DNA from: Chloroflexota bacterium
GTDB taxonomy: Bacteria; Chloroflexota; Anaerolineae; Anaerolineales; VGOW01
Length of the DNA: 64,000 bases
Assembly (NCBI GenBank): GCA_016197225.1
Contig: JACPWC010000056.1
Coordinates: 62,001-126,000, forward strand
Reading direction: 5' to 3'
In this document: in pieces, positions 41,248-59,764 of the stretch
Layout: the number at the start of each line of letters is the position of its first letter
How positions within the stretch are numbered: the first letter of the stretch is position 1
The notes under the pieces: model-generated
Databases searched by the model: none
Told to the model about the DNA's origin: nothing
Seen by the model: only the letters and a program-made list of their open reading frames with translations
Position numbers and translations under genes: made by a program

Positions 41248-41719
41248 GAAATGAAAGCTCCTGTTTTGGTAAGCAACTCAATCGTGAAGCAGATTACAAA
41301 TTGGATGTACCGCCATTATATCCAAAGTCGGCGAGAAATCATCTCTGGCGCCATCTCGGCAATTGGAGAGTGCGATCCGCTGCCGGGCAAGTCAAACTCT
41401 CTTGCACATCACGCGCTAATAGAACAACAACCGAAAGCACGTTGTAAGCTGTTTTTTCGATTCCCTTGACCGTTTCTTGACACTCAAGCAGTTACAATGA
41501 AGCATCGTTTCGTAAGCAAGGCCAACTTAGGAAGCGTATGCAATGGGGTCAAGGCCTTCTCATCCTATTTCTGTTGTCAGCAAAAAAGAATATCCGCCTG
41601 CTGTAAAGCAAAACTCCAAAAGATTCTCGAAAAGCAGGCCGCACCTTCTCGGTCAACCATCTGTAGCGATGAATCTCCCAAGTGGAGATTTCCGGGTAAT
41701 GTCTTAGAGGAGTCAATTT
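41248..41719. other. 472-base divergent intergenic region before the first giant gene
   Basis: No convincing gene. It must hold the accC promoter and the giant-gene promoter. TTGACC (41467), TTGACA (41478) and TACAAT (41494) are present but with poor spacing. The segment 41489-41566 resembles the leader of the second giant gene (53077-53130). A hairpin GAATCTCC/GGAGATTT lies near 41670-41691, and AGAGGAG precedes the ATG. Confidence 0.5.
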
Positions 41720-44700
41720 ATGCCAAACCTGATTACGTCTCGCGCACGTTTCTGGTCTCTCTTCACATCTTCGCTCCGTTTTTCTGCGGTCGCCTCCTTC
41801 GTAACGATGCTTATCTTGCTGGCAGGCATCCTTGCGCCGAGGAACCTCGCTCAGGCGGCGACCTTTGATATCGGTTGTTCCGGCGGCGTGGGTGATGTTG
41901 CCGGACTGATTGCGGCGATCACCACTGCCAATGCCAACGGGGAGGCCGACACTATCAACCTGGCCGCCGATTGCGCCTACACGTTGACGGCGGTTGACAA
42001 TACCGCTGACGGGCTCCCCACCGGCCTGCCGGCCATCACTACCGACATTATTATCAGCGGCCCCAATGCGACGATTACTCGAGGCGCAGAGGTTCCCGAC
42101 TTCCGCTTTTTCTATGTTGACCCGGATGGTCACCTGACGCTGAATGACGTAACGGTGAGCAACGGGAATTTACCCAGCACTCTCACCACCACCTTCGGCG
42201 GCGCGCTCAGCAATGCCGGAACTACGATTATCAACGGCAGTCATTTTACAAGTAACCTGGCCGGCATCGGCGGCGCCATCAGCAACAGTGGCATTCTGAC
42301 CATCAACACCTCAACGTTCACCGGCAACACGGCGGCTGTTAATCAAGGCGGCGCGATTGCCAACTTTGCCACCGTGACGATCAGCCAGAGTTCGTTCGAC
42401 GGCAACAGCGCCGCCAACAATGGCGGCGCGCTCGACAACGCCGCTTTCGGCGGCGGCACGGCCACGGCGACGATTATTGACTCGACCTTGAGCGGGAATA
42501 CAGCCGGCGGCGCAGGCGGCGCGCTTCTCAACTTCGCGGACAACATCGATCTCGCTTCCACAGCCCTGCTCACAGTTCGCAATAGCGCGCTCGTCGGCAA
42601 CATGGCGACCGGGTCGGGCGGCGGCATCTTCAATTTTGGCGGCGGCGGCGTGGAGAATGTCGTCATCGAAGACAGCGCCATCACCGGCAACAGTGGCAGC
42701 AGCGGCGGCGGTGTTCGCAACAACAACGGCGTGACGACCGTCACCCGCAGTTTGATCAACAACAATACCTCAACTTCAGACGGCGGCGGTTTTTACAATG
42801 ATGCCGGCACTCTGACCATCGTCAACAGCACTGTCAGCGGCAACACCGCCTCTGTCAATGGCGGCGGCATTTACGAATTTGCCTTCGTCGGTGGTTTCAC
42901 TACCCATTTGAATAATGTGACCATCACCGGGAACACTGCCGACTCTGATGCAGATGACAATGGCGGCGGCGGCGGCGTATTCAACGACGGCGGCACTATT
43001 AATGCAAACAACACAATCATCGCCGCCAATCTTGATCTCTCGGCTGGCATAGAGCCTTCTATCACTCCAGACTGTTCGGGCATTCTGACTTCGCAAGGAT
43101 ATAACCTGATTGCAAATACCGCCGGTTGCGTGATTTTTGGCGATACGACTGGCAACATCACAGACCTCAGCGCCAACTTAGGGCCGCTGGCGGACAACGG
43201 CGGCCCCACCTTCACTCACGCCCTGCTGACTGGCAGTCCGGCAATTGACGCCGGCGACCCGGCAGGCTGTAAGGATCGGTTCGGCGCGACTCTGGAGACC
43301 GACCAGCGCGGCGTTTCCCGGCCTCAGGATGGAGACAATGACCCGCCGGCGAACTGCGATATTGGCGCGTTTGAATTAGAGTCTTCGGTTCAAACCGGCC
43401 CGGTGTTCACCGTCAACACATCCGATGACCACGACGGTTTGTGCAGCGTGGACGACTGCACTTTGCGTGAGGCGATCAATGCGGCCAACGCTCACGCCAA
43501 TGGCGCTACGCCGGACGAGATTCGGTTCAACATTATCAGCGAAGGGAGCGTGCAAACCATCGCCCCAAGTTCGGCCCTGCCTTCCATTTTCGACCCGGTA
43601 ATCATTGACGGCTACACTCAACCTGGCGCAAGCCCCAACACTAACATTGAGGGTTTTGCTTCCAATGCCGTGCTCCATATCGAGTTGTCCGGCAGTTTGC
43701 TTGAGGGCGACGAGGTCGGCCTTGACCTGCAAACTTCCAGCAGTGTCGTGCGCGGCCTGGTTATTAATCGCTTCCCGCGCGAAGGAATTGCCATTCAGGG
43801 TGAAGGCGGTGGAGGCAACACGATTGAAGGCAACTTCATCGGCACGGATGTCACCGGCCTGCTTCCGGCCAGCAACGGCTTTGTCGGCGTCAACGTATTC
43901 ACCAACGACAACCTCATCGGCGGCCCAACCTCGGCGGCGCGTAACGTCATCTCTTCTAACGGCTCGACCGGCATCGCCTTCCAGTTTAGCTCCGGCAATA
44001 GCGCGCAAGGCAATCTGATTGGCGTCGGCGCTGATGCCGTCACCTTCCTGCCAAACTTCGTGGCCAGCGTCCCAGGCGGGGCCGGGGAGGGTTGGGGAAT
44101 CTTCATCGGGAACTTCAGCACAGGCCATACCATCGGCGGGTCAATCGCTGGCGCAGGCAATCTGATCGCCGGCAACGTCTCGGATGGAATCGAAATTCTT
44201 GACGGCGCAAGCACAATTGAGGGCAATACCATTATTCAGAATGCCGGTTCCGGCGTCGAAATCAGCGGCGCGAGCACGACCGGCAACGTTGTGCGCGCCA
44301 ATAGCATCTTTGACAATGACGGTTTGGGCATTGACCTGCTGGGCGACGGGGTGACGGCCAACGATGAGTTTGACGACGATACTGGCCCGAACAACCTGCA
44401 AAACTTCCCGGTGCTCGGCCTGGCCATCCCAACGAGTGGCGGCATCACCATTAGCGGCGAACTCAGCAGCAGTGGCGGGTCATTCACCCTTGATTTCTAC
44501 GCCAGCGCCTCGTGTGATCTTTCGAACTTTGGCGAGGGCCAGCGGCATCTCGGCGCCACAAGTGTTGGCACAGATGAGGGCGGGTTTGCCTCCTTCACCG
44601 CCGACCTGATCACCGCCCAACCGGTCACGTCAAGCGACTTCATCACCGCCACTGCGACTGACAGTTCCGGCAACACGTCTGAGTTCTCGCCGTGCGCCCC

Positions 44701-47700
44701 GGCTGACCCGAACAACGTCTCCTGGCCGCAGGCGCTCCAGACGCCCCTGGTCAGCGGCGGCGACCCCTCGATTCTGGAAGGGTCATCGGATCAATTCCTC
44801 ACCGAAGCGGGTCAGTCGCGCTGGTACAAGTTCACCGTCCAGCCGGGAAGCAAGCTCATCGTCACGCTGACGAACCTGCCAGCCAACTATGACCTGACGG
44901 TTTACAAGGACATCGCCCAAGCCTTCAACGATCTGACCAGCCCGCAAGACCTGGTGAAGTTGAGCGCCGAGTTCGCGCCCGACAGCTTCAGCCCGGACAG
45001 CTTCAGTCCCGACAGCTTTAGTCCCGACAGTTTCAGCCCGGATAGCTTCAGCCCCGACAGCTTCAGTCCTGACAGCTTCAGCCCGGACAGTTTCAGCCCG
45101 GATAGCTTTAGCCCGGATAGTTTTAGCCCCGACAGCTTCAGCCCCGATAGCTTTAGCCCGGACAGCTTTAGTCCCGACAGCTTTAGTCCCGACAGCTTTA
45201 GTCCCGACAGCTTCAGCCCCGACAGCTTTAGCGAAATCCCCGAAGCCTACGCCAGCGCCCAGACCCGGAGCCTGATCGGCATCTCGGCCTTCGACGGCAC
45301 GGCCAGCGAAGGCATCCTGCTCAACACCTGGGACAACGCCGGCGACTTCTATATTCGCGTGCGCGGGCGCAACGGCGCGTTCAGCCTGGCCGGCGCTTTC
45401 CATCTCGAAATCACCATGCTCACCGGAACGTGCGGTGATGTGAGCTTGGCCCTCCCGGCCAGCAACACAACTGCCACCGCCGGTGGTTTCAACACTGTCA
45501 TCCTCGCCGACCTGGCCCGCATGGAAGGCACGGCAGGCGACAAGGCCGCTCTGCTGGCGCAACTCAACACACTAGCCACAGCGGTCAACGGTGTGGTCGT
45601 GAACGTGGGCGCGGACGCCCGGGTGGCCGCCGCCAACACCCAGGCCGACACCAACTTTGAATGTCCGTTCGCCAAGAACCTCGTCGCCGCTTCCATCAAG
45701 AGCATCGTGGACGCCTATCGAGACGTGAACCCGATCCAGTACGTGGTCATCGTCGGCAACGACAACGTCATCCCGTTCTTCCGCCACCCCGATAACGCCT
45801 TGCTGGCGAACGAGCAGAATTACGTGCCGCCAGTGCGCGACAACACCGCCTCGCAGGCCAGCCTCAAGTTCGGCTACGTGCTCGGCCAGGACGCCTACGG
45901 CTCAAGCATCAGCATCTCGTACAAAGTCAATGTCTTCCCGATCCCCGATCTGCCAGTTGGCCGTTTGGTGGAAACGCCGACCGAAGTGATTGGCATGATC
46001 AACGCCTTCCTGACCACAGGCGACGGCGTGGTGGACACCCCGGCCTCGTCGTTGGTCACCGGCTACGACTTCCTCGAAGACGCCGCCAACGCCGTTCAAA
46101 CCGAACTGGTGGCCGGCCTCGGTTCAACCGCCACTGCCACCGACACTCTCATCGCCCCGCGCGACGCCTCACCGCTTGACCCGCAAGCCTGGACGGCGGA
46201 TCAACTGCGAGCCGCACTGCTGACCAACCGCCACGACCTGATCTACCTGGCCGGGCACTTCAGCGCCTCCAGCGCCCTGGCCGCCGACTACACCACCCGC
46301 ATGCTGGCCAACGAACTGACGGCCTCATCGGTGAATCTGGTGAACAGCATCGTCTACAGCGCCGGGTGCCACTCCGGCTACAACATCGTTAACGATCACG
46401 GCATCGCCAATGTCACGCAGGAACCGGATTGGGCGCGCGCCTTTGCCCAGAAACAGGCGACCCTTATCGCCGGAACCGGCTATCAATATGGCGACACCGA
46501 TTTCATCGAATACAGCGAGAGCATCTATCTTGAGTTCACCCGCCAACTGCGAACCGGCACCGGCCCGGTGTCAGTCGGGAATGCGCTGGTGGCGGCCAAA
46601 CTCGCCTACCTGGCCGACACGCCTCAACTCAAAGGCATCCACGAGAAGGCTCTGCTCGAAGCCACAATCTACGGCCTGCCGATGATCAGCGTCAACATGC
46701 CGGGCGAACGCCTGACTCCGGTAAGCGACTCTTCGATTGTTGGCGCACTGAACGGCTATGTTGCTGATCCTGGAAACACGCTCGGCTTGCAATTCACCGA
46801 CATCACGGTGACGCCGACTCTGACCACCCACACCGTCACCCTCCACAACCCCACCAACTTTGCCCAGACCTTCGACGCCACTTATCTTTCGGGCAGTGAC
46901 GGGCAAGTGACGGCCCCGGCAGAACCTGTCCTGCCGCTGGAAATAGAAAACGTGACAGCCAACGGAACAGTTTTGCGCGGCGTGGGCTTCCGGGGTGGCG
47001 GCTACACCGACACACCGGGCATCCTGCCGCTCACCGGCGCGGCCACCACCGAGCTTCGCGGCGTCCACCCGCCGTTCTTCTCCGAAGTGTTCTATCCGAT
47101 CAAGCCCTGGCACGTGAACTACTTCGAGGCCCTCAGCCGAGGCAATGGCGTCACCCGCCTGGCGGTGATGCCGGCCCAGTATCAGTCGGCCAACGGCAGT
47201 TCGTTCACCGGCACACTCCGGCAGTTCAACGACATGGACTTCCGGCTCTTCTACAGCAACAACACCCAAACTTACGGCGGCAACACCCCGGCCCTGGCGG
47301 CGGCCCCTTACATCGCCAAAGTGCTGGCGGCCTCTACCGCCACCGACATCAACTTTGAAGTCACCGTCGTCGGCGATCCTTCGGCGGGCGTCCAGGAAGT
47401 GTGGGTGACTTACACCGCCCTCAGCGGGCCGTACGCCGGGCAATGGCAATCGCTCGACCTGGCGCAAGACACAAATGACTCGCGGCTGTGGAAAGGCTCG
47501 CTCCCGCTCAACGGAACCGCTCCGCAAGACATTCGTTACCTGGCGCAAGCTGTGAACGGCGTGGGCCTGGTTGCCGCCAGCACCAACCTCGGCGCTTACT
47601 ACCAGCCCGACGTTGATCCCGGCGCGCCCTCGCCCGACCTGACCCCGACTGTTCTCGACCTTCAGGCGTCAAGCGCGACTGGCGCATACAGCACCACCGC

Positions 47701-48844
47701 CATGTTCACGGCCACGCTCACCAGTGGCGGCTCGCCGCTGGCAAGCGAAACCATCGTCTTCGCCCTCGGCGGCCAGACTCGCCGCGCCACGACCGACGCC
47801 AACGGTCGGGCCGCCCTTGAGCTTCTGCTCCTCGGCCTGCCGGGCAACTACGAGTTGCGGGCGGCATTCCGAGGCTCGGATGTTCACGCGCCATCGTCCG
47901 ACATGGTTGCGTTCGCCGTCGTCAAGCAGAACACAGCCATCACGCTCGACCCGCCATCAGTCACGGTCGTGGCCGGCAACAACAGCGGTATTGTAGCGAC
48001 GTTGAAAGACGCCGCCGGCCTGCCGCTCGGCCAGAAGACCATCTTCTTTGTCGTCACCGGCCTCGGCGGTAATTACGCCACCTCGGTCATCACCGACTTC
48101 GCCGGGCGAGCGCCTCTCGGCTCTGTGCCACTGCCTCCCGGCAGTTACACCGTTCGCGCCTTCTTTGGCGGCACGATTCCGGTGCCGGGCAACCCGATCA
48201 CCCTCGACGACCCGCGCTACAACTCGTCGTCGGCAACCGGCGCGCTCACCCACCTCTCGCCCTTCCCGGCCAACGGCGTGCTCGACAACTTCAACCGCCG
48301 CAATGGCCGCCTGCGCGCGCCGCACAAACCCTGGCATGGCTCCGAGGGCCTGGGCGGCTACCAGATCATCAACAAACAGGTGGACGTGGTTGGCGGCGGG
48401 CCGATCTACTGGCGAAACAACCCGAAGTTCGGCGCGAACCAGGAAGCCTACATCACCTTCAAGAAGGTAGACGGCGACGGCATCGAGCAAGACCTTCTGC
48501 TCAAGGTGCAGGGCAACTCGCCCGACTGGCGCAAGGGCGCGATTGAGGTGCTCTACGACGCCCGGCACAACGCAGTACGCGTGGAGACTTTCAGGCCAGG
48601 CAACAAGCACTGGACGATCTACGCCAATATCCCGCTTACCCTGAACGACGGCGATCAGTTCGGCGCGCAAGCCTTGAGCAACGGCCAGGTGAAAATCTTC
48701 AAGAACGGCATGCTTGTGGGCACGGTGACGCTCAACACTGCCGACCAGACCTTTTTCAACAACAAGGGTGGGCGCACCGGTCTGTGGTTCATCAAAGCCG
48801 GCGACGCCGTCTTCGACGACTTCGGCGGCGGCAACATTCCGTAG
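41720..48844 (+). CDS. Giant secreted beta-helix protein with (PDSF)17 repeat and C25-like cysteine peptidase domain
   Basis: 2374 aa. Signal peptide to about residue 46 (NLAQAATF). Then a Pmp-type beta-helix (about 55-480), a closing choice-of-anchor-Q-like element (SPAIDAGDP...TDQRGVSRPQ), a CSLREAI-type segment (CTLREAINAANAHANGATPD, about 575) with NosD-like turns, and a PPC-like beta domain (SRWYKFTVQPGSKL, about 1035). Residues 1086-1170 are 17 tandem xPDSF units. Next is a domain (about 1220-1680) with LIYLAGHFSAS (His1513) and VYSAGCHSGYN (Cys1550), the order and strand context of clan CD peptidases such as gingipain C25. Ig-like domains and a LamG-like C-terminus (about 2185-2374) follow. 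Paralogue of the gene at 53173. The substrate is unknown and peptidase activity is inference. Confidence 0.85.
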   Translation: MPNLITSRARFWSLFTSSLRFSAVASFVTMLILLAGILAPRNLAQAATFDIGCSGGVGDVAGLIAAITTANANGEADTINLAADCAYTLTAVDNTADGLPTGLPAITTDIIISGPNATITRGAEVPDFRFFYVDPDGHLTLNDVTVSNGNLPSTLTTTFGGALSNAGTTIINGSHFTSNLAGIGGAISNSGILTINTSTFTGNTAAVNQGGAIANFATVTISQSSFDGNSAANNGGALDNAAFGGGTATATIIDSTLSGNTAGGAGGALLNFADNIDLASTALLTVRNSALVGNMATGSGGGIFNFGGGGVENVVIEDSAITGNSGSSGGGVRNNNGVTTVTRSLINNNTSTSDGGGFYNDAGTLTIVNSTVSGNTASVNGGGIYEFAFVGGFTTHLNNVTITGNTADSDADDNGGGGGVFNDGGTINANNTIIAANLDLSAGIEPSITPDCSGILTSQGYNLIANTAGCVIFGDTTGNITDLSANLGPLADNGGPTFTHALLTGSPAIDAGDPAGCKDRFGATLETDQRGVSRPQDGDNDPPANCDIGAFELESSVQTGPVFTVNTSDDHDGLCSVDDCTLREAINAANAHANGATPDEIRFNIISEGSVQTIAPSSALPSIFDPVIIDGYTQPGASPNTNIEGFASNAVLHIELSGSLLEGDEVGLDLQTSSSVVRGLVINRFPREGIAIQGEGGGGNTIEGNFIGTDVTGLLPASNGFVGVNVFTNDNLIGGPTSAARNVISSNGSTGIAFQFSSGNSAQGNLIGVGADAVTFLPNFVASVPGGAGEGWGIFIGNFSTGHTIGGSIAGAGNLIAGNVSDGIEILDGASTIEGNTIIQNAGSGVEISGASTTGNVVRANSIFDNDGLGIDLLGDGVTANDEFDDDTGPNNLQNFPVLGLAIPTSGGITISGELSSSGGSFTLDFYASASCDLSNFGEGQRHLGATSVGTDEGGFASFTADLITAQPVTSSDFITATATDSSGNTSEFSPCAPADPNNVSWPQALQTPLVSGGDPSILEGSSDQFLTEAGQSRWYKFTVQPGSKLIVTLTNLPANYDLTVYKDIAQAFNDLTSPQDLVKLSAEFAPDSFSPDSFSPDSFSPDSFSPDSFSPDSFSPDSFSPDSFSPDSFSPDSFSPDSFSPDSFSPDSFSPDSFSPDSFSPDSFSPDSFSEIPEAYASAQTRSLIGISAFDGTASEGILLNTWDNAGDFYIRVRGRNGAFSLAGAFHLEITMLTGTCGDVSLALPASNTTATAGGFNTVILADLARMEGTAGDKAALLAQLNTLATAVNGVVVNVGADARVAAANTQADTNFECPFAKNLVAASIKSIVDAYRDVNPIQYVVIVGNDNVIPFFRHPDNALLANEQNYVPPVRDNTASQASLKFGYVLGQDAYGSSISISYKVNVFPIPDLPVGRLVETPTEVIGMINAFLTTGDGVVDTPASSLVTGYDFLEDAANAVQTELVAGLGSTATATDTLIAPRDASPLDPQAWTADQLRAALLTNRHDLIYLAGHFSASSALAADYTTRMLANELTASSVNLVNSIVYSAGCHSGYNIVNDHGIANVTQEPDWARAFAQKQATLIAGTGYQYGDTDFIEYSESIYLEFTRQLRTGTGPVSVGNALVAAKLAYLADTPQLKGIHEKALLEATIYGLPMISVNMPGERLTPVSDSSIVGALNGYVADPGNTLGLQFTDITVTPTLTTHTVTLHNPTNFAQTFDATYLSGSDGQVTAPAEPVLPLEIENVTANGTVLRGVGFRGGGYTDTPGILPLTGAATTELRGVHPPFFSEVFYPIKPWHVNYFEALSRGNGVTRLAVMPAQYQSANGSSFTGTLRQFNDMDFRLFYSNNTQTYGGNTPALAAAPYIAKVLAASTATDINFEVTVVGDPSAGVQEVWVTYTALSGPYAGQWQSLDLAQDTNDSRLWKGSLPLNGTAPQDIRYLAQAVNGVGLVAASTNLGAYYQPDVDPGAPSPDLTPTVLDLQASSATGAYSTTAMFTATLTSGGSPLASETIVFALGGQTRRATTDANGRAALELLLLGLPGNYELRAAFRGSDVHAPSSDMVAFAVVKQNTAITLDPPSVTVVAGNNSGIVATLKDAAGLPLGQKTIFFVVTGLGGNYATSVITDFAGRAPLGSVPLPPGSYTVRAFFGGTIPVPGNPITLDDPRYNSSSATGALTHLSPFPANGVLDNFNRRNGRLRAPHKPWHGSEGLGGYQIINKQVDVVGGGPIYWRNNPKFGANQEAYITFKKVDGDGIEQDLLLKVQGNSPDWRKGAIEVLYDARHNAVRVETFRPGNKHWTIYANIPLTLNDGDQFGAQALSNGQVKIFKNGMLVGTVTLNTADQTFFNNKGGRTGLWFIKAGDAVFDDFGGGNIP
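44975..45229 (+). repeat. 15-bp tandem repeat encoding 17 xPDSF units
   Basis: Exactly 255 bases = 17 x 15. The first unit is APDSF, all others SPDSF, with no amino-acid change inside. Codons vary freely (AGC/AGT, CCC/CCG/CCT, GAC/GAT, TTC/TTT), so the peptide, not the DNA, is conserved. Confidence 0.97.
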
Positions 48845-48870
48845 CCGGCCGCCCCTCAGCAACTTTAGTG

Positions 48871-48914
48871 AACAGAGCGGAGAGCCTGCGCAACACTCTT
48901 CGCTCTGTTTTTTG
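48871..48914 (+). terminator. Terminator after the first giant gene
   Basis: AACAGAGCG (48871-48879) pairs with CGCTCTGTT (48901-48909), with AGAG/CTCT extending the stem inside, followed by TTTTG. It lies 26 bases after the stop. Confidence 0.85.
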
Positions 48915-48988
48915 TGAGACGACAACCCACTAATTTCACAGTAGCACTCTTTGCCATTTGAGATACAATTGACAATCAAAATCAGGCC

Positions 48989-51900: not shown

Positions 51901-52681
51901 GAAAGCGCAAGCCATCTTTGAAGACCTGGGCGACCGGGCCGGGGTAGCCCAGGTGCTTCACTACGCCGGGTCGCTGGCCGCGCAACAGGGCAATTACAAC
52001 CTGGCTCAGGCCCGCTACGAAGCCAGCCTTGTCCTCCGGCAGGAGTTGGATGATAAAACGCGCATCGGCGGCCTGCTCAGCAACCTGGGCATCATCGCCC
52101 GCCTGGGAGGCAATTACGAACAGGCTCGCGCCTACCACGAAGAAGGCCTGGCCATCCGGCGCGAAGTCGGAGACCGCTCGGCCATCGCTCACTCGCTGAA
52201 CAACCTGGCCAACGTGGCCCTGGATCAGGGCAACTACGCCGAGGCCCGCGCCCGCCACGAAGAGGCGGCGACTCTTCGCCGCCAGATCGGCGACCGCTGG
52301 GCCGAGGCGAATTCTCTCAACAACCTCGGCAATGTCGCCCGCGCTCAAGGCGATTATGCGGCGGCGCGCTCGATGTATCAGGAAAGTTTGACCATCAACA
52401 ACCAACTGGGCGACCGCTGGGCAACAGCCTACTTGTTGGAAGACATGGGCGGCCTGGCTTCGCTCGAAGGCCAGCCCGAACGCGCCTTTCGGCTGGTGGG
52501 CGCCGCCGCCGGCTTACGGGAAGCCATTGGCTCCCCCCTCTCCCCCGCCGAAAAGAACAAGCTCGAAGCCCTGCTCGCCAACGCCCGGCAGGCGCTCGAT
52601 GAAACAGCCTGGAACAGCCTCATAGACAAAGGCCGGGCCTTGACCCTGCCAGAGGCAGTTCAATACGCCCTGCAAAACTAG
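48989..52681 (+). CDS. Adenylate/guanylate cyclase-domain protein with AAA ATPase and TPR repeats
   Basis: 1230 aa, no membrane segment. The first class III cyclase domain (about 25-190) has FADVSGFTAL (metal Asp35) and SFTGDAITCWF (Asp87). The second (about 260-430) reads FLRFSGIDYDADD and lacks the first Asp, so it is probably degenerate. An AAA/STAND-type ATPase follows: MVGRAEELAAIE, P-loop AEAGMGKSRL (about 485) and LVLEDCHWIDPLSNDLLE. The C-terminus (about 900-1190) holds TPR units (GNYNLAQARYEASLVLRQEL and similar). The layout matches the widespread cyclase-AAA-TPR signalling proteins; nucleotide product and partners are unknown. It lies alone between the two giant genes, all on the plus strand, with its own leader and terminator. 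Confidence 0.9.
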   Translation: MIDTLSVYIPMDRRQALAKGVALPDRAYGAALFADVSGFTALTEALANELGPQRGAEELSRHLNLVYDALIAELHRYGGSAISFTGDAITCWFDGAETTTQLATQRAVACGLAMQKAMGAFVEVTIPSGRTVSLAVKVAVATGPARRFVVGDPVIQVMDVLAGTTLDNLSATEKQAGKGEVVLHSSAAEALGNLVRIASRSYDESPGQRPAVVSGLTNDVAASPWPALSTDALNESQIRPWLLPPVYTRLMGGQGEFLAELRPAVALFLRFSGIDYDADDEAGDKLNAYIRQVQSVFARYEGALMNVNIGDKGSALYAAFGAPLAHEDDAARAASAALELRLPSLNYIRAVQIGISQGRMRTGAYGSGECRTYGVLGDDVNLAARLMQAAAPGQILASRGAQQSASHDFNWEGLAAIKVKGKTEPVDVYNLRGQRARQAVRLQEINYTIPMVGRAEELAAIEQKMAQVMRGHGQIAGITAEAGMGKSRLMAEVIRLANEYQLTGYGGECLSYGTNTSYLVWHSIWRSFFGVDPEWDLAQQVKALRRQLQMIDPALTPRLPLLDAALNLPIPDDDFTRDFDAKLRKTSREALLADCLRGRARFGPLFLVLEDCHWIDPLSNDLLEVIGRAIADLPILLVMSYRPMDSQSGQTLRVSQLPHFSETKLNDFTPQEAERLISLKLEQFFGAQTAIPQDFIGKITDKAQGNPFYIEELLNYLQDRKIDPRNSQALEQLDFPANLHSLILSRMDQLTEDQKSTIKVASIIGRQFKAAMLWGAYSQLVGDEPQVRANLEALGRLDLTPLDTPDPELEYLFKHIITHEVAYESLPYALRATLHDQIAQYIERTFSKVLEQWVAPLAFHYGRSENTAKKREYWLKAVEAAQANYDNKWAIDYYQQVLPLLTAEEQVPVMLKLGGVLELVGRWAETGDSYLKALALTEQLGDRRAQAQCQTVIGEFTRKRSQYTEASDWLAKAQAIFEDLGDRAGVAQVLHYAGSLAAQQGNYNLAQARYEASLVLRQELDDKTRIGGLLSNLGIIARLGGNYEQARAYHEEGLAIRREVGDRSAIAHSLNNLANVALDQGNYAEARARHEEAATLRRQIGDRWAEANSLNNLGNVARAQGDYAAARSMYQESLTINNQLGDRWATAYLLEDMGGLASLEGQPERAFRLVGAAAGLREAIGSPLSPAEKNKLEALLANARQALDETAWNSLIDKGRALTLPEAVQYALQN

Positions 52682-52690
52682 CCACGTTCA

Positions 52691-52722
52691 GAGAAACCGG
52701 CGCATCCCAACGCCGGTTTCTC
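52691..52722 (+). terminator. Hairpin after the cyclase gene
   Basis: GAGAAACCGGCG (52691-52702) and CGCCGGTTTCTC (52711-52722) form a perfect 12-bp stem with an 8-base loop. A T run is lacking, so termination efficiency is uncertain. Confidence 0.6.
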
Positions 52723-52930
52723 ATTCCCCACCCTCAACCTTCCTCAACCGGGGCGCAAACTGTGTCCTGAAATACAGACGGCGAAGCTCAAACATGATAT
52801 TGTGAAACTGCCAGAGTAAGGGCGTATCACCCTAATCTCCTGTCCAACCGCCCATATCCTGAACCGGGTTTGAACGGTATAGAACGGATGTGAAGCAGTT
52901 GAGGCCGCAATCAGGGAGAAACTATAGACG

Positions 52931-53019
52931 TTATTGGAAATAACCTTTTGCGCGCTCCAACCGCGTCCTCGTGGTTGGGCCGCCCGCGAGGACGCGGGCC
53001 GGGAGCCAATTTCCGATAA
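52931..53019 (+). mobile_element. MITE-like palindromic element, left of second giant gene
   Basis: 89 bp. The ends TTATTGGAAATAA and (reverse complement) TTATCGGAAATTGG are terminal inverted repeats; inside, AACCGCGTCCTCG pairs with CGAGGACGCGG. It is the inverted counterpart of 59641-59756. No coding capacity; mobility is inferred from structure. Confidence 0.65.
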
Positions 53020-53172
53020 AGTTTATCTACTATCAGTTTCCCTTGATGTTTCCTTTACCCTTTTTTGAGTATATGCCAGTTCAATTCAGTATCGCTTCTT
53101 CCTAAGAAGCGAACACCGGGGTCTCATCCTGCGGGGGGTGAGCAGTTCGAAAATAGGATTGAGGAGAGAGAC

Positions 53173-56100
53173 ATGAAAAACTTTACAAAGCTAGCCATGC
53201 GTCTGGCGGGCGCAACGGCCCTTCTGGTCGCCGTCCTGTCGCTTCAGTTTTCCGTCTATATGACTTCCAGGGCCAGCGGCGCCACTACCATCGTCGTCAA
53301 CAGCCCTCTCGACAAAATCAACACTGACGGCCTTTGCACCCTGCGCGAGGCCGTCATTGCCGCCAACAAGGACCTGGCCTCCAGCAGTCAACCCGGCGAA
53401 TGCCCGGCCGGGAGCGGAACAGACACCATCGTCCTCCCGACGGGAACCTACACCCTCACCCGCACCGACTCCGGTAGCGAAGATGCATCCTCAACCGGCG
53501 ACCTGGACATCAAAAGCAACCTGTCCATCACCACCACCGGCCCGGCCACCATCACCGCCGCCAGCGGCTTTACCGACCGCATCTTTCAAATTCACATTGG
53601 CAAGACCGTCACCATCTCGGGAGTCACGATCAGCAACGGCAACATCTCCGATGATGATGGCGGCGGCGGTATCCATAACAAAGGCGTCCTCATCCTTCAG
53701 AACAGCACCATCTCGGGCAATAAATCCGGGGGCAAAGGCGGCGGCATTTTCAACGCCGGAACTCTCACCCTGATCAACGACACCATCAGCGGCAACTCCG
53801 CCAAAACCGACGGCGGCGGTCTCTTCAATTACAGCGACACGGCGACTCTCACCAACGTTACCATTGCCAACAACACCGCTGACCTCGACGCCAACGGTTC
53901 CGGCAACGGCGGTGGCCTGGCCCGCTACGGCGGCACGGTTTACATCAAGAATGTGATCATCGCCGGCAACAACGACAACAGCGCCTCGACCAAACATCGC
54001 GACTGCTCCGGTTCAATCGCCTCTCAGGGAAACAACCTGATTCAATTCACGACTGGCTGTACCCTCACCGGAGTCAGCACCGGCAACCTGCTCGGCGTGA
54101 ACCCCAACCTCGGCCCCCTGCAAAACAACGGCGGCAACACCGCCACTCATGCTTTGCCCGCTGGTAGCCCGGCGATTGACGCCGGAACGAACACCGGTTG
54201 CCCGGCCACCGACCAGCGCGGCGTGACCCGGCCTCAGGGCGCAAAATGCGACATTGGCGCTTACGAATTTGAAAACCCCGCCCAGCCTGGCCCCACCTTC
54301 GTCGTCAACACCACCGACGACCCCGGCGACGGCCTGTGCGCCTTCAATCATTGCTCTCTGCGCGAAGCGATTGCCGCCGCCAACATCCGCACCAACGGCG
54401 CAACGCCCGATCAGATCACCTTCAACATCCCCGGCGCAGGCCCGCACACTATTCAGCCAACTTCGGCCCTGCCGACGATCACCGACCCGGTCGTCGTTGA
54501 CGGCACGACCGACGCAGTCGTGTTGGACGGCTTCAACGCTGGAACCGGCGCGAACGGCTTCATCCTCGCCACCAGCAACAGCACTATCCGCAACTTGACG
54601 ATCACCCGCTTCAACGGAAACGGCGTGCGCGTCAGCTCCGGCGTAGGCAACGCCCTGCGCGCCAACAGCATCTTCGACAATGGCGCTTCGGGCATTGACC
54701 TGGGTGGCGACGGCCCGACGGCCAACGATACCAATGACGCCGACTCGGGCGCGAACGGCCTGCAAAACTTTGCCACCCTCACTCGCGCCATTCCCAGCGG
54801 CGGCAACATTGGCATCGAAGGCCGCCTCAACAGCGCCGCCAACACTGCTTTCACGATTGAATTCTTCGCCAGCCCGGTTTGCGAGTCTTCCAACTTTGGC
54901 GAAGGCCAAACCTTCCTCGGCTCAACGACGACCACAACCGACGCGACGGGTGACGCCACCTTCAGCGCCTCCATTGCCTCGACGGTCGCCGTCGGCCAGT
55001 TTGTCACGGCCACTGCCACCGATCCTGGCGGCAACACCTCCGAGTTCTCGCAGTGTGTGGTCGCCGGCCTGGGCAACGATGTCTGGACGCGCGCTTCTCG
55101 CCTGACGCTCGGCGGCGACCCGCTCTCAGCGCCAGCCGATCACTTTGTTGACCTGCCCGGCCAGTCGCGCTGGTACAAGTTCTCGGTGCAACCGGGGAGC
55201 AAGGTGATCGTCACCCTCACCGGCCTGCCCGCCAACTACGACCTCACCCTCTACAAAGACATCGCCACCGCATACAAAACCATCGCCTCACCGCAAGACC
55301 TGGTGCGGCTCGGCGCCGAGTATGCGCCCGACACCTTCAGCCCAGATTCGTTTAGCCCCGACACGTTTAGCCCGGACACATTCAGTCCCGACACCTTCAG
55401 CCCCGACACGTTTAGCCCGGACACCTTCAGTCCCGACACGTTCAGCCCGGACACGTTTAGCCCAGACACCTTCAGCCCGGATACGTTTAGCCCCGACACG
55501 TTTAGTCCTGATACTTTCAGCCCGGATACGTTTAGCCCGGATACGTTTAGCCCGGACACCTTCAGCCCCGACCCAGCGGCCTTCTCCAGCGCCCAGAGCC
55601 GCAGTCTCATTGGCGTCTCGGCGTTTGACGGCACGAGCGGCGAGGGACTCAGCCTCAACACCTGGAACAACGCCGGCGATTTTTACGTGCGCGTGCGTGG
55701 CCGCAACGGCGCGTTCAGCCTGACCGCGCCCTTCCATCTGCAAGTAATCATGCTCACCGGCTCGTGCGGCGCCGTCAGCCCGACGCTCCCGGCCAACTCG
55801 CTGGCTGGCGTGGCTGGCAGCTACAAGACCATCATCCTCACCGACCTGGCCCGCACGGCTGGCACGGTGGACGAGAAAAACGCCCTGCAAGCGAAGTTGG
55901 CCGAGTTTGCCAACCCGACGCTTCATCCTGAAGTGGCTGGTGTTATCGTGGACGTGGGAGCCGATGCCCGCGTGGCCGCCGCCAACATTCAAGCCGACGC
56001 TCACCCTGAGTGCCCCTACGCTAAGAATCTGGTGGCGTCTTCCATCAAGAACATCATTGATAGCTACCGCGCCTTGAACACGCTGGAGTATGTGGTCATC

Positions 56101-59100
56101 GTCGGCCACGACAACACCATCCCGTTCTTCCGCTATCCCGATCAGGCGTTGCTGGCGAACGAGCAGAACTACGTGCCGCCGGTGAAGGATGCCACCTCCT
56201 CGCAGGCCAGCCTCAAGCTGGGTTACGTGCTCAGCCAGGATGGCTACGGCGCGCCGTTCGAACTTTCGACGAAGGTCAACACCTTCCCGCTGCCCGGCCT
56301 GGCGATTGGCCGCCTGGTGGAAACGGCGGCTGATGCCGCCACGATGCTCGACGCTTATCTCGCCACGAGCGGCGGCGTTGCGCCGCAACCGGCCTCGTCG
56401 CTCGTCACCGGCTACGACTTCCTCGAAGACGCCGCGAATGCGGTTCAGAGTGAACTGGCCGCCGGGCTGGGTTTGGGGGCGACCACCGACACGCTCATTG
56501 CCGACCGGGCGCTTTCCCCGACAGACCCGGCCTCGTGGACGGCATCTCAACTGAAGACGGCGCTTCTGACCAATCGCCACGATCTGATCTTCCTCGCCGG
56601 CCACTTCAGCGCCAGCAGCACCCTGGCCGCCGACTACAAGACGCGGCTGTTGACGACGGAGGTGGCGGCTTCCAGCACCGACTTCACCAACAGCATCATC
56701 TTCAGCGCCGGTTGTCACGCCGGCTACAACATCGTCAACGAGCACAACGTGGCCGGCGTTACCGCCGAGCCAGACTGGGCGCAGACGTTCGCCCGAAAAG
56801 GCGCAACCCTGATCGCCGGAACCGGCTATCAATACGGCGACACCGACTTCGTCGAATACAGCGAGCGGCTCTACCTGGAATTCAGCCAGGCGTTGCGAAC
56901 CGGAACCGGGCCGGTGGCGGTGGGCAAGGCGCTGGTGGCGGCCAAACAGGCGTACCTGGCGGGCACGCCGGAACTGCGCGGCATCCACGAGAAGGCCCTG
57001 CTCGAAGCCACCCTCTTCGGCCTGCCCATGTTGAGCGTGAACATGCCCGGCCAACGCCTGCCCTCGAGCAGTGACGCTTCCATCGTCGCCGCGCCCAACA
57101 CCTTCGCCGTCAACCCCGGCGCGACGCTTGGCTTGCAGTTTGCCGATGTCAACGTGACTTCGACGCTCACGCCGCACACGGTCACCCTCAAAGACCCGAC
57201 CAACGCCACGCAAACCTACGACGCCACTTATCTTTCTGGCGGCAACGGCGTGGTGTCAAACCCGGCCGAGCCGGTTCTGCCCGCCGAAGTTCGCAACGTC
57301 ACTGTGCCCGGCACGGTTCTGCGCGGCGTGGGCTTCCGGGGTGGCTCCTACTCCGACCTGGCGAACATCCTGCCGCTCACCGGCGCGGCATCCACCGAAC
57401 TGCGCGGCGTTCATGCCCCGGCCTTCTACGATGTGTTCTACCCGATCCAGCCCTGGCGCGCCAACTACTTCGCCGCCCTGACGAACGTCAACGGGGCCAC
57501 CCGCCTCATCGTCACCCCGGCCCAGTTCCAGTCCGACCCGGCCTCGCTGATCGGCAGAGGCACGTTGCGGCAGTTCGGCAACATGAACTTCCGGCTGTAC
57601 TACAGCAACAACACCCAGACTTTCTCCGGCAACGTCCCAGCGCTGTCTGAGCCGCCTTCGATCACCAACATCGTTGCCACCGTGTCCGGCGGGAACATGA
57701 TCTTTAGCGCCCAGGTCACGGGCGAGCCTGCCGCCGGCGTTCAGGAAGTCTGGGTCACTTACACCGCCCTCAGCGGCCCCTTTGCCGGAACCTGGCAATC
57801 GCTTGATTTGACTCGAAGCGCCACTGACTCGAAGACGTGGCAGGGCACGCTCGACCTCGTTGGCACTCCGCCCGGAGACGTGCGCTTCGTGGCGCAAGCC
57901 GCCAACGGCGTTGGCCTGGTGACGTTGATGACAAACCTGGGCCGTTACTACAGCATCAACCTGGCCCCCACCGAGCCAACTCTGCTCGTCCTCGAAACCC
58001 CGGCGGCCTCGTCCGGCCCGTACCGCACCTCGGCCACCTTCAGCGCCGTGCTCACCAACAACGGCGCGCCACTGGTTGGGCAGTTGGTCAAGTTCAATCT
58101 TGGCAGCCAGGGGCGGCGGGCCGTCACCGACGTAAATGGCCGGGCGACCGTCACCATATTCCTCAACGGCCTCCCCGGCGATGATGAGTTGCGCGCCTCC
58201 TTCCTCGGAACCGAACTCTACCAACCGTCCTTCGCCGGGCCGCTCACCTTCACCATCACTAAGCAGGCCACTTCGCTCACGCTTAACCCGGCCTCGGCGA
58301 CCAGCCACCTGGGCAACGGCCCGCTCATCACGGCAACGCTCACCGACGCCGCCGACAACCATCTGGCCGAAGAGACCGTGTTCTTTGTGATTACCGGCGA
58401 GTCAGGATCGTACAATACCGCCGTCATCACCGACTACGCCGGTCAGGCCGTCTTGAGCGACGTGCCACTGCCGTTTGGCAGTTACACCGTCAACGCCTAC
58501 TTCAGCGGCGCGATCACCCTCAGCACCGAAGAAACGCTCGTATTCGACGATGCGCGCTACACGCCCTCGACGGCCACCGGCTCGCTGGCTCTGATCAACA
58601 ACACCCCAGCGGCGGTGGATGATGCTTACGAGGTGGACGAGAATGACTCGCTGACAGTGGCCGCTCCGGGCGTGCTGGGCAACGACGGTGACGCCGACGA
58701 CGATCCCCTCACCGCGATTCTGGTGGACGCCCCGACTCACGGCACGGTGACGCTCAACACCGACGGCTCCTTCACTTACACCCCAGCCGACGACTTTCAC
58801 GGCACAGACGCCTTCACCTACGCCGCCAACGACGGCTTCACCAACAGCAACACGGCCATCGTCACCATCACCGTCAACGAAGTGGAAACCCTGATCTACG
58901 GCGTGCAGAACATGAGCGAGAGCGTGCAGTTCTTCACCGTTGACCGGATCACCCACGTTGTCATGCCGCTCGGCCCGGTGCAAGTTGGTTACGACATCGA
59001 AGGCCTTGACCTTCACCCGACCACCGGCGTTCTGTATGCCAGCTCTGAAAACGGCGGGCGGCTCTACACTGTAGACAAGCAAACCGGACTGCTGACGCTC

Positions 59101-59532
59101 GTCGGCCCGACCGGCTTCAACAACGTGCCGGGCCTCTCCTTCAAACCTGACGGGACGCTGTGGGGCTGGGCCAAGAATCAAGGGCTGATCACGATCAATC
59201 CTGCCACCGGCCAGGGCACATTGGTCTTTGCCTCAACGATGGCAACCAAGAACGTGGAAGGCATTGCCTGGAACAACGATGGCACACTGTTGTACATGGT
59301 TGCCAACCGCGACCTGCTTGTCTACAACCCGAGCGGGAACACCGTGACCAAGATCGCCAGCAACCTGCCCGGCAAGACCGAGGCTGTTGACATGCGGCCC
59401 GACGGCCTGCTGGCGCTCGGCGTGCACGGGTTCACGATCTACGCTTATGACGTGAATTTGAAGCAAGTGGTCACGAGCGAGAACATCACCATCCCCTACG
59501 ACGACGTGGAAGGTCTGGCCTGGCCTAATTAA
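53173..59532 (+). CDS. Second giant secreted beta-helix protein with (PDTF)16 repeat and C25-like cysteine peptidase domain
   Basis: The ATG at 53173 (MKNFTKLAMRLAG) follows GAGGAGAGAG; 2119 aa. Signal peptide to about residue 36 (SRASGA). CSLREAI-like segment CTLREAVIAANKD (about 55), short Pmp-type beta-helix, SPAIDAGTN closing element, second CSLREAIAAAN (about 395), and PPC-like SRWYKFSVQPGSKV (about 665). Residues 718-797 are 16 xPDTF units (unit 2 is SPDSF). The peptidase-like domain has LIFLAGHFSAS (His1144) and FSAGCHAGYN (Cys1181), the same 37-residue spacing as its paralogue. Ig-like domains, a cadherin/tandem-95-type repeat (VDDAYEVDENDSLTV, DDFHGTDAFTYAANDG) and a beta-propeller-like C-terminus (about 1910-2119) differ from the paralogue's LamG-like end. 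Confidence 0.85.
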   Translation: MKNFTKLAMRLAGATALLVAVLSLQFSVYMTSRASGATTIVVNSPLDKINTDGLCTLREAVIAANKDLASSSQPGECPAGSGTDTIVLPTGTYTLTRTDSGSEDASSTGDLDIKSNLSITTTGPATITAASGFTDRIFQIHIGKTVTISGVTISNGNISDDDGGGGIHNKGVLILQNSTISGNKSGGKGGGIFNAGTLTLINDTISGNSAKTDGGGLFNYSDTATLTNVTIANNTADLDANGSGNGGGLARYGGTVYIKNVIIAGNNDNSASTKHRDCSGSIASQGNNLIQFTTGCTLTGVSTGNLLGVNPNLGPLQNNGGNTATHALPAGSPAIDAGTNTGCPATDQRGVTRPQGAKCDIGAYEFENPAQPGPTFVVNTTDDPGDGLCAFNHCSLREAIAAANIRTNGATPDQITFNIPGAGPHTIQPTSALPTITDPVVVDGTTDAVVLDGFNAGTGANGFILATSNSTIRNLTITRFNGNGVRVSSGVGNALRANSIFDNGASGIDLGGDGPTANDTNDADSGANGLQNFATLTRAIPSGGNIGIEGRLNSAANTAFTIEFFASPVCESSNFGEGQTFLGSTTTTTDATGDATFSASIASTVAVGQFVTATATDPGGNTSEFSQCVVAGLGNDVWTRASRLTLGGDPLSAPADHFVDLPGQSRWYKFSVQPGSKVIVTLTGLPANYDLTLYKDIATAYKTIASPQDLVRLGAEYAPDTFSPDSFSPDTFSPDTFSPDTFSPDTFSPDTFSPDTFSPDTFSPDTFSPDTFSPDTFSPDTFSPDTFSPDTFSPDTFSPDPAAFSSAQSRSLIGVSAFDGTSGEGLSLNTWNNAGDFYVRVRGRNGAFSLTAPFHLQVIMLTGSCGAVSPTLPANSLAGVAGSYKTIILTDLARTAGTVDEKNALQAKLAEFANPTLHPEVAGVIVDVGADARVAAANIQADAHPECPYAKNLVASSIKNIIDSYRALNTLEYVVIVGHDNTIPFFRYPDQALLANEQNYVPPVKDATSSQASLKLGYVLSQDGYGAPFELSTKVNTFPLPGLAIGRLVETAADAATMLDAYLATSGGVAPQPASSLVTGYDFLEDAANAVQSELAAGLGLGATTDTLIADRALSPTDPASWTASQLKTALLTNRHDLIFLAGHFSASSTLAADYKTRLLTTEVAASSTDFTNSIIFSAGCHAGYNIVNEHNVAGVTAEPDWAQTFARKGATLIAGTGYQYGDTDFVEYSERLYLEFSQALRTGTGPVAVGKALVAAKQAYLAGTPELRGIHEKALLEATLFGLPMLSVNMPGQRLPSSSDASIVAAPNTFAVNPGATLGLQFADVNVTSTLTPHTVTLKDPTNATQTYDATYLSGGNGVVSNPAEPVLPAEVRNVTVPGTVLRGVGFRGGSYSDLANILPLTGAASTELRGVHAPAFYDVFYPIQPWRANYFAALTNVNGATRLIVTPAQFQSDPASLIGRGTLRQFGNMNFRLYYSNNTQTFSGNVPALSEPPSITNIVATVSGGNMIFSAQVTGEPAAGVQEVWVTYTALSGPFAGTWQSLDLTRSATDSKTWQGTLDLVGTPPGDVRFVAQAANGVGLVTLMTNLGRYYSINLAPTEPTLLVLETPAASSGPYRTSATFSAVLTNNGAPLVGQLVKFNLGSQGRRAVTDVNGRATVTIFLNGLPGDDELRASFLGTELYQPSFAGPLTFTITKQATSLTLNPASATSHLGNGPLITATLTDAADNHLAEETVFFVITGESGSYNTAVITDYAGQAVLSDVPLPFGSYTVNAYFSGAITLSTEETLVFDDARYTPSTATGSLALINNTPAAVDDAYEVDENDSLTVAAPGVLGNDGDADDDPLTAILVDAPTHGTVTLNTDGSFTYTPADDFHGTDAFTYAANDGFTNSNTAIVTITVNEVETLIYGVQNMSESVQFFTVDRITHVVMPLGPVQVGYDIEGLDLHPTTGVLYASSENGGRLYTVDKQTGLLTLVGPTGFNNVPGLSFKPDGTLWGWAKNQGLITINPATGQGTLVFASTMATKNVEGIAWNNDGTLLYMVANRDLLVYNPSGNTVTKIASNLPGKTEAVDMRPDGLLALGVHGFTIYAYDVNLKQVVTSENITIPYDDVEGLAWPN
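55324..55563 (+). repeat. 15-bp tandem repeat encoding 16 xPDTF units
   Basis: 240 bases = 16 x 15. First unit APDTF, second SPDSF, the remaining fourteen SPDTF; then SPDPAAF leaves the pattern. Codon use varies synonymously (ACC/ACG/ACA/ACT, GAC/GAT), as in the paralogue. Confidence 0.97.
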
Positions 59533-59537
59533 CGGGT

Positions 59538-59578
59538 AAGACCTGCCGGGTCTTCGCGCAAGCGACCCGGCAGGTCTT
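59538..59578. repeat. Palindromic GACCTGCCGGGTC hairpin
   Basis: AAGACCTGCCGGGTC (59538-59552) and GACCCGGCAGGTCTT (59564-59578) form a perfect 15-bp stem with an 11-base loop right after the giant-gene stop. No T run, so more likely a dispersed palindrome than a terminator. Confidence 0.75.
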
Positions 59579-59595
59579 GGCAGAGCTACGTCTCG

Positions 59596-59636
59596 AAACC
59601 CGTTTTCCTGGCTACGGAAAACGGGTTTTTATTTTA
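59596..59636 (+). terminator. Strong terminator of the second giant gene
   Basis: AAACCCGTTTTCC (59596-59608), a 7-base loop, GGAAAACGGGTTT (59616-59628), then a run TTATTTT: a classical Rho-independent terminator. Confidence 0.92.
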
Positions 59637-59640
59637 GACC

Positions 59641-59756
59641 TTATCGGAAATAAGCTCATAGCCCGCGTCCTCGCGGGCCCCTTCGGGCAACCGCGCCCCA
59701 CCGGGATGCTTCGCGAAGGACGCGGTTGGGGAGCGTCATAATGTTATTCCTGATAA
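59641..59756 (-). mobile_element. MITE-like palindromic element, right of second giant gene
   Basis: 116 bp. Terminal repeats TTATCGGAAATAA (59641-59653) and TTATTCCTGATAA (59744-59756); inner CCCGCGTCCTCGCGGG and AACCGCG...GGACGCGGTT. Its reverse complement aligns with 52931-53019 end to end, with an extra ~25 bases in the middle. It lies 8 bases from the carboxyltransferase stop. Confidence 0.7.
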
Positions 59757-59764
59757 GATTTTTT

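Follow-up and report, generated by a model that had tools for sequence, protein, structure and literature searches.

Giant secreted proteins with a predicted gingipain-like peptidase and a short-peptide array, encoded beside a cyclase-STAND ATPase-TPR regulator in Chloroflexota and other bacteria

Related systems and the locus

The C25 gingipains RgpB and Kgp are exported peptidases with a two-subdomain clan CD fold, in which the His precedes the Cys, and they carry Ig-like domains C-terminal of the catalytic domain. Members of the soluble adenylyl cyclase (sAC) family (ADCY10 type and bacterial sAC-like) consist of a C1-C2 composite cyclase followed by an ATPase and helical repeats; to our knowledge, the ligands of the bacterial members with TPR tails are largely unknown. 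Chloroflexus has sAC-type cyclases that are responsive to bicarbonate (PMC11006738). RRNPP(A) systems pair a secreted short peptide, which is sometimes encoded in tandem, with a neighbouring cytosolic TPR protein; tandem Phr pheromones are cut outside the cell and bound by the Rap TPR (PMC11343458). STAND-centred conflict systems, which occur in multicellular-type bacteria, combine a STAND ATPase and TPRs with a clan CD peptidase (Kaur et al., 2020, PMC7159879). The locus described here shares, according to our predictions, features with each of these systems. Its parts all come from known families, and the combination of a gingipain-like peptidase, a homogenised array and a sAC/STAND/TPR sensor was not found described: an earlier description of such a giant-array-cyclase system was not found in the literature searched, which covered few subscription journals, and the word "gingipain" is absent from the text of Kaur et al.

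The window, that is the whole stretch of DNA analysed, comprises 64,000 nucleotides of a Chloroflexota contig; features lie on its forward strand unless indicated otherwise. As described in an earlier note on this DNA, two paralogous genes surround one regulator gene. The giant secreted C25-like protein P1 (41720..48844) has 2374 aa, the regulator, a tandem class III cyclase - STAND ATPase - TPR protein (48989..52681), has 1230 aa and the second giant P2 (53173..59532; alternative start TTG at 53065) has 2119 aa. The cassette is an 18.5-kb insertion (41248..59764) in a carboxylase operon, located between the genes for biotin carboxylase (39742-41247, reverse strand) and carboxyltransferase (59765-61315, reverse strand). 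In two genomes of the same genus the gap between these two genes is 17-20 bp, and no giant was found in either genome.

The giant proteins and their arrays

P1 starts with a signal peptide (approximately 41720..41857) with a hydrophobic h-region followed by AQA, and signal-like N-termini are present in most relatives of the giants, which supports the signal peptides proposed earlier for both proteins. The following beta-helix region (41858..44719) had been read as Pmp/CSLREAI type, in agreement with matches to Chlam_PMP and Beta_helix repeats, choice_anch_Q and CSLREA. A PPC-like domain is divided into two halves (44780..44974 and 45230..45424) that both form strands in the model; its Pfam match, found in the first half, is weak (PF04151, E 5.7e-4). 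The peptidase-like domain (45482..46705) is followed by the expected Ig-like domains (46706..48286), with Big_3_5/Big_1 matches in their second half, and by an exchangeable C-terminal domain (48287..48841). The latter had been described as LamG-like, for which there is no Pfam match; it is without homology to the P2 C-terminus, and the tail of one relative (L131) resembles it. The exchangeable C-terminus of P2 (58591..59529) is cadherin-like/Big_9 and then propeller-like, as had been suggested. Residues 817-2184 of P1 and 456-1813 of P2 form a shared block with 61% identity, whereas the C-termini are unrelated.

The earlier note had assigned the motifs GHFSAS and SAGCH to a clan CD peptidase, and the fold had been set as a test beforehand. 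The AlphaFold model of the P1 domain showed a gingipain fold, with the best structural match to RgpB (4ief; Z 32.9, 306 aligned residues, rmsd 2.6; VIA-align) and a further one to Kgp (Z 28.6); the next family, separase, follows at Z 17.0. The candidate catalytic residue His1513 (46256..46258) comes after model strand 488-491 and the candidate nucleophile Cys1550 (46367..46369) after strand 525-528. The corresponding P2 domain (55816..57051, delimited by alignment to P1) is 68% identical and contains His1144 and Cys1181, giving the same spacing of 37 residues in both giants. Since 41 of 42 relatives retain the His/Cys pair, it does not occur by chance. P1 and P2 gave no match to Pfam C25 (PF01364) in single-sequence searches; 24 of the 42 relatives match this family at E≤1 (best 9.7e-13), and several, among them L048, L057 and L066, exceed the Pfam cut-off. 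A profile made from the 42 members matched gingipain R2 in the PDB weakly (E 0.64). We consider the giants gingipain-fold (C25-like) predicted peptidases with a conserved candidate His/Cys pair. They differ from the C25 gingipains in sequence (approximately 16% identity), in having a PPC-like domain and a homogenised peptide array before the peptidase and in their cyclase partner, and a T9SS C-terminal sorting domain was not found in an NCBIfam scan of P1 and P2. In contrast to the STAND conflict systems (PMC7159879), the peptidase is a separate gene and, judged from the signal peptides, exported rather than a cytosolic effector.

Inserted in the PPC-like domain of P1 is a near-perfect tandem array of SPDSF (44975..45229; 17 units, the first being APDSF; SPDSF x16), and P2 contains a near-perfect SPDTF array (55324..55563; 16 units; SPDTF x14). 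The P1 array is disordered in the AlphaFold model (pLDDT about 28). Thus, the "pentapeptide repeat" reported earlier is real as an array of pentapeptides but does not belong to the Pfam pentapeptide repeat family (quadrilateral beta-helix): Pfam searches gave no profile match, and the modelled pLDDT is low. Tandem near-identical penta- or hexapeptides were found at the same place inside the PPC-like domain in 107 of 134 giants (arrays were called at ≥15 of 20 matches; the best value in shuffles was 11). The unit varies from giant to giant; pooling 1083 units showed that 94% are identical to the commonest one, and 77 of the 107 arrays are perfect. The 1022 identical peptide copies are written in 760 DNA spellings, so selection acts on the peptide itself and keeps the units identical at that level. 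The spelling count was used in place of the pooled pN, which is inflated because Ser changes between AGY and TCN are scored as non-silent. No residue usable as a fixed cleavage site is common to all array units. A genome-wide search located the array only in the two giants; it revealed no orphan copies and, in contrast to RRNPP(A) systems, no small dedicated propeptide gene.

The regulator and its pairing with the giants

The regulator contains a C1-C2 cyclase pair of the soluble adenylyl cyclase type (48989..50278), a STAND/AAA_16 ATPase domain with a Walker A motif (GxGKS; 50306..51538) and a TPR superhelix (51596..52468), and no signal peptide was seen in its sequence. The cyclase-AAA-TPR composition given in the earlier note is therefore correct in its three parts, but the cyclase domains number two. 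Human sAC matches the cyclase part with Z 39.9 over 405 residues, and the ATPase matches the STAND-TPR structure 6mfv (E 7.6e-17). The TPR resembles those of LGN (Z 30.3) and RapI (Z 26.5), TPR resemblance alone being weak evidence. Like the sAC family, the regulators keep their catalytic residues: the composite site, consisting of Asp35 and Asp87 in C1, which we take to be the metal residues, and Asn381 and Arg385 in C2, presumably active-site residues, is complete at each residue in 62 of 62 regulators. The position four before Asp87, presumably the site of the bicarbonate-binding lysine of sAC, is mostly G/S/Y in the 62 regulators, and such a lysine is, in contrast to the sAC family, not evident. 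This clade also differs from the sAC family in that it is tied to giants and in that its TPR co-varies with their array.

Searching for homologues with an alignment yielded 80 giant loci, whereas a single-sequence query found nothing. Among loci with both flanks visible, the giant adjoins a regulator in 34 of 44 named and 18 of 29 class loci. Such pairs are found in Chloroflexota, Verrucomicrobiota and Actinomycetota, with the regulator on either side of the giant and the genes in any orientation. A cyclase-AAA-TPR gene is thus located beside giant homologues in most of these loci, as had been predicted, but no other locus showed a giant-cyclase-giant triplet, one giant with one regulator being the usual arrangement. 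The earlier overall reading holds in part, for the gingipain fold and the neighbouring regulator gene, not for the LamG C-terminus; a stalk role of the N-terminal part and target choice by the exchangeable C-terminus are conjectural. What appears to be the central element, the homogenised array and its co-variation with the TPR of the regulator, goes beyond that reading. In the class sampled, the regulator was found in all 12 genomes that have close giants and in 3 of 237 others (Fisher test, p = 5e-18 with regulators called by a plain bit-score cut; 1.4e-19 with a looser full-length definition). This co-occurrence persists when the genes lie apart, with the best regulator on another contig or approximately 40 kb away (genome G207). 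The association is thus nearly obligatory among the sampled genomes. Two more sAC-like genes are present in the genome studied here and neither lies beside a giant; the link is therefore confined to a subset of the family. A neighbour regulator is absent from 8 of 10 array-less members and from 14 of 85 array-bearing members, array loss corresponding to about four changes on the tree; four members with no or a degenerate array still have a neighbour regulator. The pairing provides the bacterial sAC-like cyclases with TPR tails with a concrete, testable partner, and suggests that bacteria of at least three phyla may read their own secreted protein by a means not described so far.

Co-variation was analysed with Mantel tests, in which shared ancestry enters only through the control domains. 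In the close tier the array unit co-varies with the TPR (r 0.50) and not with the cyclase (0.13) or the ATPase (-0.02) of the same regulator, and controlling for C25, cyclase and ATPase gave 0.57 (p<0.001) for the TPR. The signal peaks at regulator residues 961-1110. The unit co-varies also with the C25 catalytic half (0.47 given the N half), and TPR and C25 correlate with r 0.93. Plain linkage was rejected as the cause because the TPR tracks the unit even at loci whose regulator has its cyclase end towards the giant. Once C25 is controlled for, the unit adds nothing at loci with the cyclase end facing the giant, nor in the distant tier alone; the TPR may therefore read another part of the giant.

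Possible modes of recognition

We propose, with a probability of roughly one half, a two-part module in which the cytosolic TPR regulator recognises the array-bearing secreted giant, most likely via the array peptide, and thereby controls cyclic-nucleotide synthesis. On an exposed and disordered loop, the secreted gingipain-fold peptidase would present one short peptide in many copies, this peptide would be the ligand of the TPR groove, and at this locus one regulator would read both SPDSF and SPDTF. The peptidase half that co-varies with the unit may cut the array. With a cytosolic regulator and an exported array, a return path or a contact before export must be assumed: freed peptides might be taken up again by an oligopeptide importer, in the manner of Phr/Rap signalling, or the array might be read before export. 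The product would be cAMP, with CRP-like proteins as its effectors. In the genome there are 14 SBP_bac_5 and 17 cNMP_binding matches, which indicates a general capacity for import and for cyclic-nucleotide readout.

A more specific version, which we put forward tentatively, is peptide signalling outside Bacillota, with the giant peptidase freeing its own pheromone and a partner STAND adenylyl cyclase reading the imported peptide in its TPR groove. The peptide, the specificity of the peptidase and the groove of the receptor would then have evolved in step on many occasions in Chloroflexota, Actinomycetota and Verrucomicrobiota. The TPR model resembles the RapI superhelix, but compared with RRNPP(A) systems (PMC11343458) the carrier is a predicted protease of >2000 aa with 4-23 copies, the output is a cyclase instead of an HTH or Rap-type domain, the hosts belong to the three phyla named and the peptide is a predicted one. 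If the array is a pheromone, TPR-read peptide communication would reach phyla in which it has yet to be established, and would be joined to cyclic nucleotides.

Control could also run from the inside outwards, with an internal signal such as bicarbonate or the ATP state leading to a cyclase product that switches on the gene or the export of the giant. The giant would then serve as a protease at the surface or in nutrition, and its array as a spacer that is structural, glycosylated or flexible. The TPR ligand would be a folded region of the giant, or else a shared export component. A dedicated cyclase beside an exported protease fits such a scheme, as do the bicarbonate response of the Chloroflexus cyclases (PMC11006738), the CRP-like domains in the genome and the fact that the TPR tracks C25 as well as the array; it leaves unexplained why the units stay identical while their codons drift and why unit and TPR co-vary over and above C25 both in the full set and in the close tier, and we regard it as rather doubtful. 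The TPR might, on the other hand, act as a chaperone or export checkpoint by binding, in the cytosol, the still unfolded array of a freshly synthesised giant, the STAND cyclase reporting export load and the peptide being neither released nor imported. This would make an import step unnecessary and is consistent with a regulator lacking a signal peptide, with a TPR fold matching that of LGN, whose groove accommodates linear peptides, and with the predicted disorder of the array. Multivalent tethers usually tolerate imperfect copies, yet most arrays are perfect, and the co-variation of the C25 catalytic half with the unit fits cleavage better, which makes this alternative unlikely.

Finally, giant and regulator might be functionally unlinked and adjacent merely as hitch-hikers on a mobile cassette. 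The cassette is an insertion absent from the same-genus genomes, and would therefore move as a unit. This is very improbable, since the co-occurrence in all 12 genomes contradicts it and holds with the genes apart, across phyla and in every orientation.

Insertion of three genes into a carboxylase operon

Two giant secreted proteins, P1 (2374 aa, 41720-48844) and P2 (2119 aa, 53173-59532), flank a gene for a 1230-aa regulator (48989-52681) that contains two class III cyclase domains, an AAA_16/STAND ATPase and TPR_12 repeats. The positions of the three genes, all on the plus strand, agree with an earlier note on this sequence. The cassette interrupts a minus-strand acyl-CoA carboxylase operon: biotin carboxylase (39742-41247) is encoded on one side of it and carboxyltransferase (59765-61315) on the other, with genes for a biotin carrier and methylmalonyl-CoA mutase further along. 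In two genomes of the same genus (L250, L251) these carboxylase genes are 17-20 bp apart, and all four same-genus genomes examined are without a giant. Thus, the cassette was gained, probably by horizontal transfer. P1 and P2 are the only giants in the source genome. The insertion's right edge, 3′ of the P2 stop codon (59533-59764), carries GC-rich inverted repeats, likely terminators.

Giant proteins and their peptide array

P1 and P2 have a block in common (P1 817-2184) that is 61% identical, and their C-termini, reported in the earlier note to differ, are unrelated. Of 249 genomes from the class, 59 contain relatives, which fall into two tiers, a close one at 46-70% identity and a distant one at about 30-40%; the 80 named loci with giants belong to Chloroflexota, Verrucomicrobiota, Actinomycetota and a few MAGs labelled Proteobacteria. 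Most complete members start with a signal-peptide-like N-terminus. The constant core consists of PPC-like domain, array, C25 domain and Ig-like domains, while the N- and C-terminal parts vary freely. An IYLPLVxR-like motif, perhaps a Chloroflexota C-terminal sorting signal, ends many distant-tier giants (L043, L047, L056, L060, L061, L068 and others) and a few close-tier ones (L073, L037, L095, L143); neither P1 nor P2 has it at its C-terminus.

Singly, P1 and P2 did not match C25 in Pfam and PDB searches; 24 of 42 aligned members match Pfam Peptidase_C25 (best 9.7e-13). The proposed catalytic residues are indeed 37 residues apart in both proteins (His1513/Cys1550 in P1, His1144/Cys1181 in P2) and are kept in 41 of the 42. 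The sole exception, L051 (G116:C91), has Arg and Ser instead; it has lost the array as well, and its available sequence shows no regulator. Clan CD peptidases carry His and Cys after core strands. The AlphaFold model of P1 1020-1950 (63-row alignment, pLDDT 85.5, pTM 0.87) places each of the two residues after a core strand, and the comparison with gingipain suggested earlier matched it to RgpB (Z 32.9, rmsd 2.6, 306 residues) and Kgp (Z 28.6), with separases (Z 17.0), CHAT and legumains scoring well below among the solved structures. By computation the giants are exported gingipain-fold proteins, and the idea of exported clan CD peptidases was right in outline.

The array, a series of tandem short-peptide units, is located within the PPC-like domain, N-terminal of the C25 domain. 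It consists of APDSF followed by 16 SPDSF units in P1 and of 16 units, mostly SPDTF, in P2, and is probably disordered since its pLDDT is about 28. With a cut-off of 15 of 20 matches (shuffled sequences reach 11 at most), arrays were called in 107 of the 134 members having enough upstream sequence, with a period of five in 65, six in 41 and eight in one. The unit varies by protein (SPDAF, SPEAF, SPSVF, SPAQF, SPSQW, NPDAFT, SPFKA, GQLGNV, GRISSI, IPLQN, GGWASI and more); 94% of 1083 units are the commonest unit of their own array. The 1022 identical peptides are encoded by 760 DNA versions, and identical DNA was found in five of 77 perfectly identical arrays. The copies are therefore not fresh duplications, and selection keeps the exact peptide. 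Copies of the array elsewhere in the source genome were not found.

The regulator and its pairing with the giants

In the regulator model (residues 21-1220, pLDDT 88.2, pTM 0.68) the cyclase pair resembles human soluble adenylyl cyclase (Z 39.9, 405 residues, rmsd 2.7), and the STAND-TPR structure 6mfv was a strong Foldseek match. The TPR part resembles LGN (Z 30.3) and RapI (Z 26.5), two superhelices that bind peptides; for Rap, peptide binding is described in PMC11343458. Asp35 and Asp87 (metal, C1), Asn381 and Arg385 (C2) and the Walker A GxGK of the ATPase are invariant in 62 regulators. Because the catalytic residues of C1 and C2 are invariant, the regulator is probably an active cyclase with a single site; its product would be cAMP. 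The source genome encodes more sAC-like cyclase proteins (L152 8992-12894, L153 7531-11646, L154 8512-10974), one fused to a response-regulator-like N-terminus; none adjoins a giant. The neighbour of some distant-tier giants is an AAA-TPR protein that lacks the cyclase domains (L056 8127-10643, L058 11246-13831), and the output domain may thus be interchangeable.

The note's idea of a regulator was also right in outline. Among loci with both flanks visible, 34 of 44 named ones and 18 of 29 from the class have a regulator no more than 1.5 kb from the giant, on either side of it and in either strand relation. When genomes of the class sample are counted instead of loci, a close regulator (1085 bits or more) occurs in 12/12 genomes with a close-tier giant versus 3/237 others (p = 5e-18); one of these three has a distant-tier giant beside a close regulator (L057). 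Genomes with a non-adjacent giant retain the regulator elsewhere, and non-adjacent regulators branch nested among adjacent ones. The pairing is for practical purposes certain. Giants with an array are adjacent in 71 cases and not in 14, those without in two and eight (p = 9e-5), although this association goes back to about four changes on the tree.

Co-variation of the array and a possible function

Distances between units were compared with distances between protein parts, using 50-53 pairs of adjacent genes. In the full set the unit correlated with TPR (0.82), C25 (0.79), PPC end (0.88) and Ig (0.84); its correlations with CYC (0.55) and AAA (0.56) were weaker. For the 35 close-tier pairs by themselves the values were 0.50 for TPR, 0.43 for C25, 0.13 for CYC and -0.02 for AAA. 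In the close tier the partial correlation of unit and TPR given C25, CYC and AAA was 0.57 (p<0.001); the 15 distant-tier pairs, taken separately, showed no significant effect beyond that of C25. Sliding windows locate the signal in TPR residues 961-1100. With the N half of C25 controlled for, its catalytic half still tracks the unit (partial 0.47); the reverse was not seen. In pairs with unlike units the TPRs are farther apart at equal cyclase divergence; the ATPases of the close tier are not. Linkage alone would predict that the cyclase tracks the giant when the cyclase end of the regulator faces it. In that orientation TPR reached 0.53 and CYC 0.17, which speaks against mere linkage, though unit and C25 are inseparable in this subset. 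Computation thus shows that array, TPR and peptidase half co-vary.

We infer that the TPR groove might read the array peptide and that the STAND module would gate the cyclase; the probability that the array is the TPR ligand is about 0.5. The array could be read before export, or the peptidase could release its peptide for re-import, for which Phr peptides are a precedent (PMC11343458). The 14 SBP_bac_5 and 17 cNMP_binding matches in the source genome permit release and re-import without proving it. A full pheromone function seems less likely than not. The computations establish an exported gingipain-fold protein, a partner cyclase and a selected peptide array. No earlier description was found in the literature searched, and the system appears undescribed; its novelty lies in the whole, every part belonging, fully or nearly, to a known family.

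The regulator of L057 (3443-7396), whose neighbouring distant-tier giant has an array of GAVGNT units, combines a close-tier cyclase and ATPase (52-54% identity) with a divergent TPR (28%) and looks like a TPR swap.
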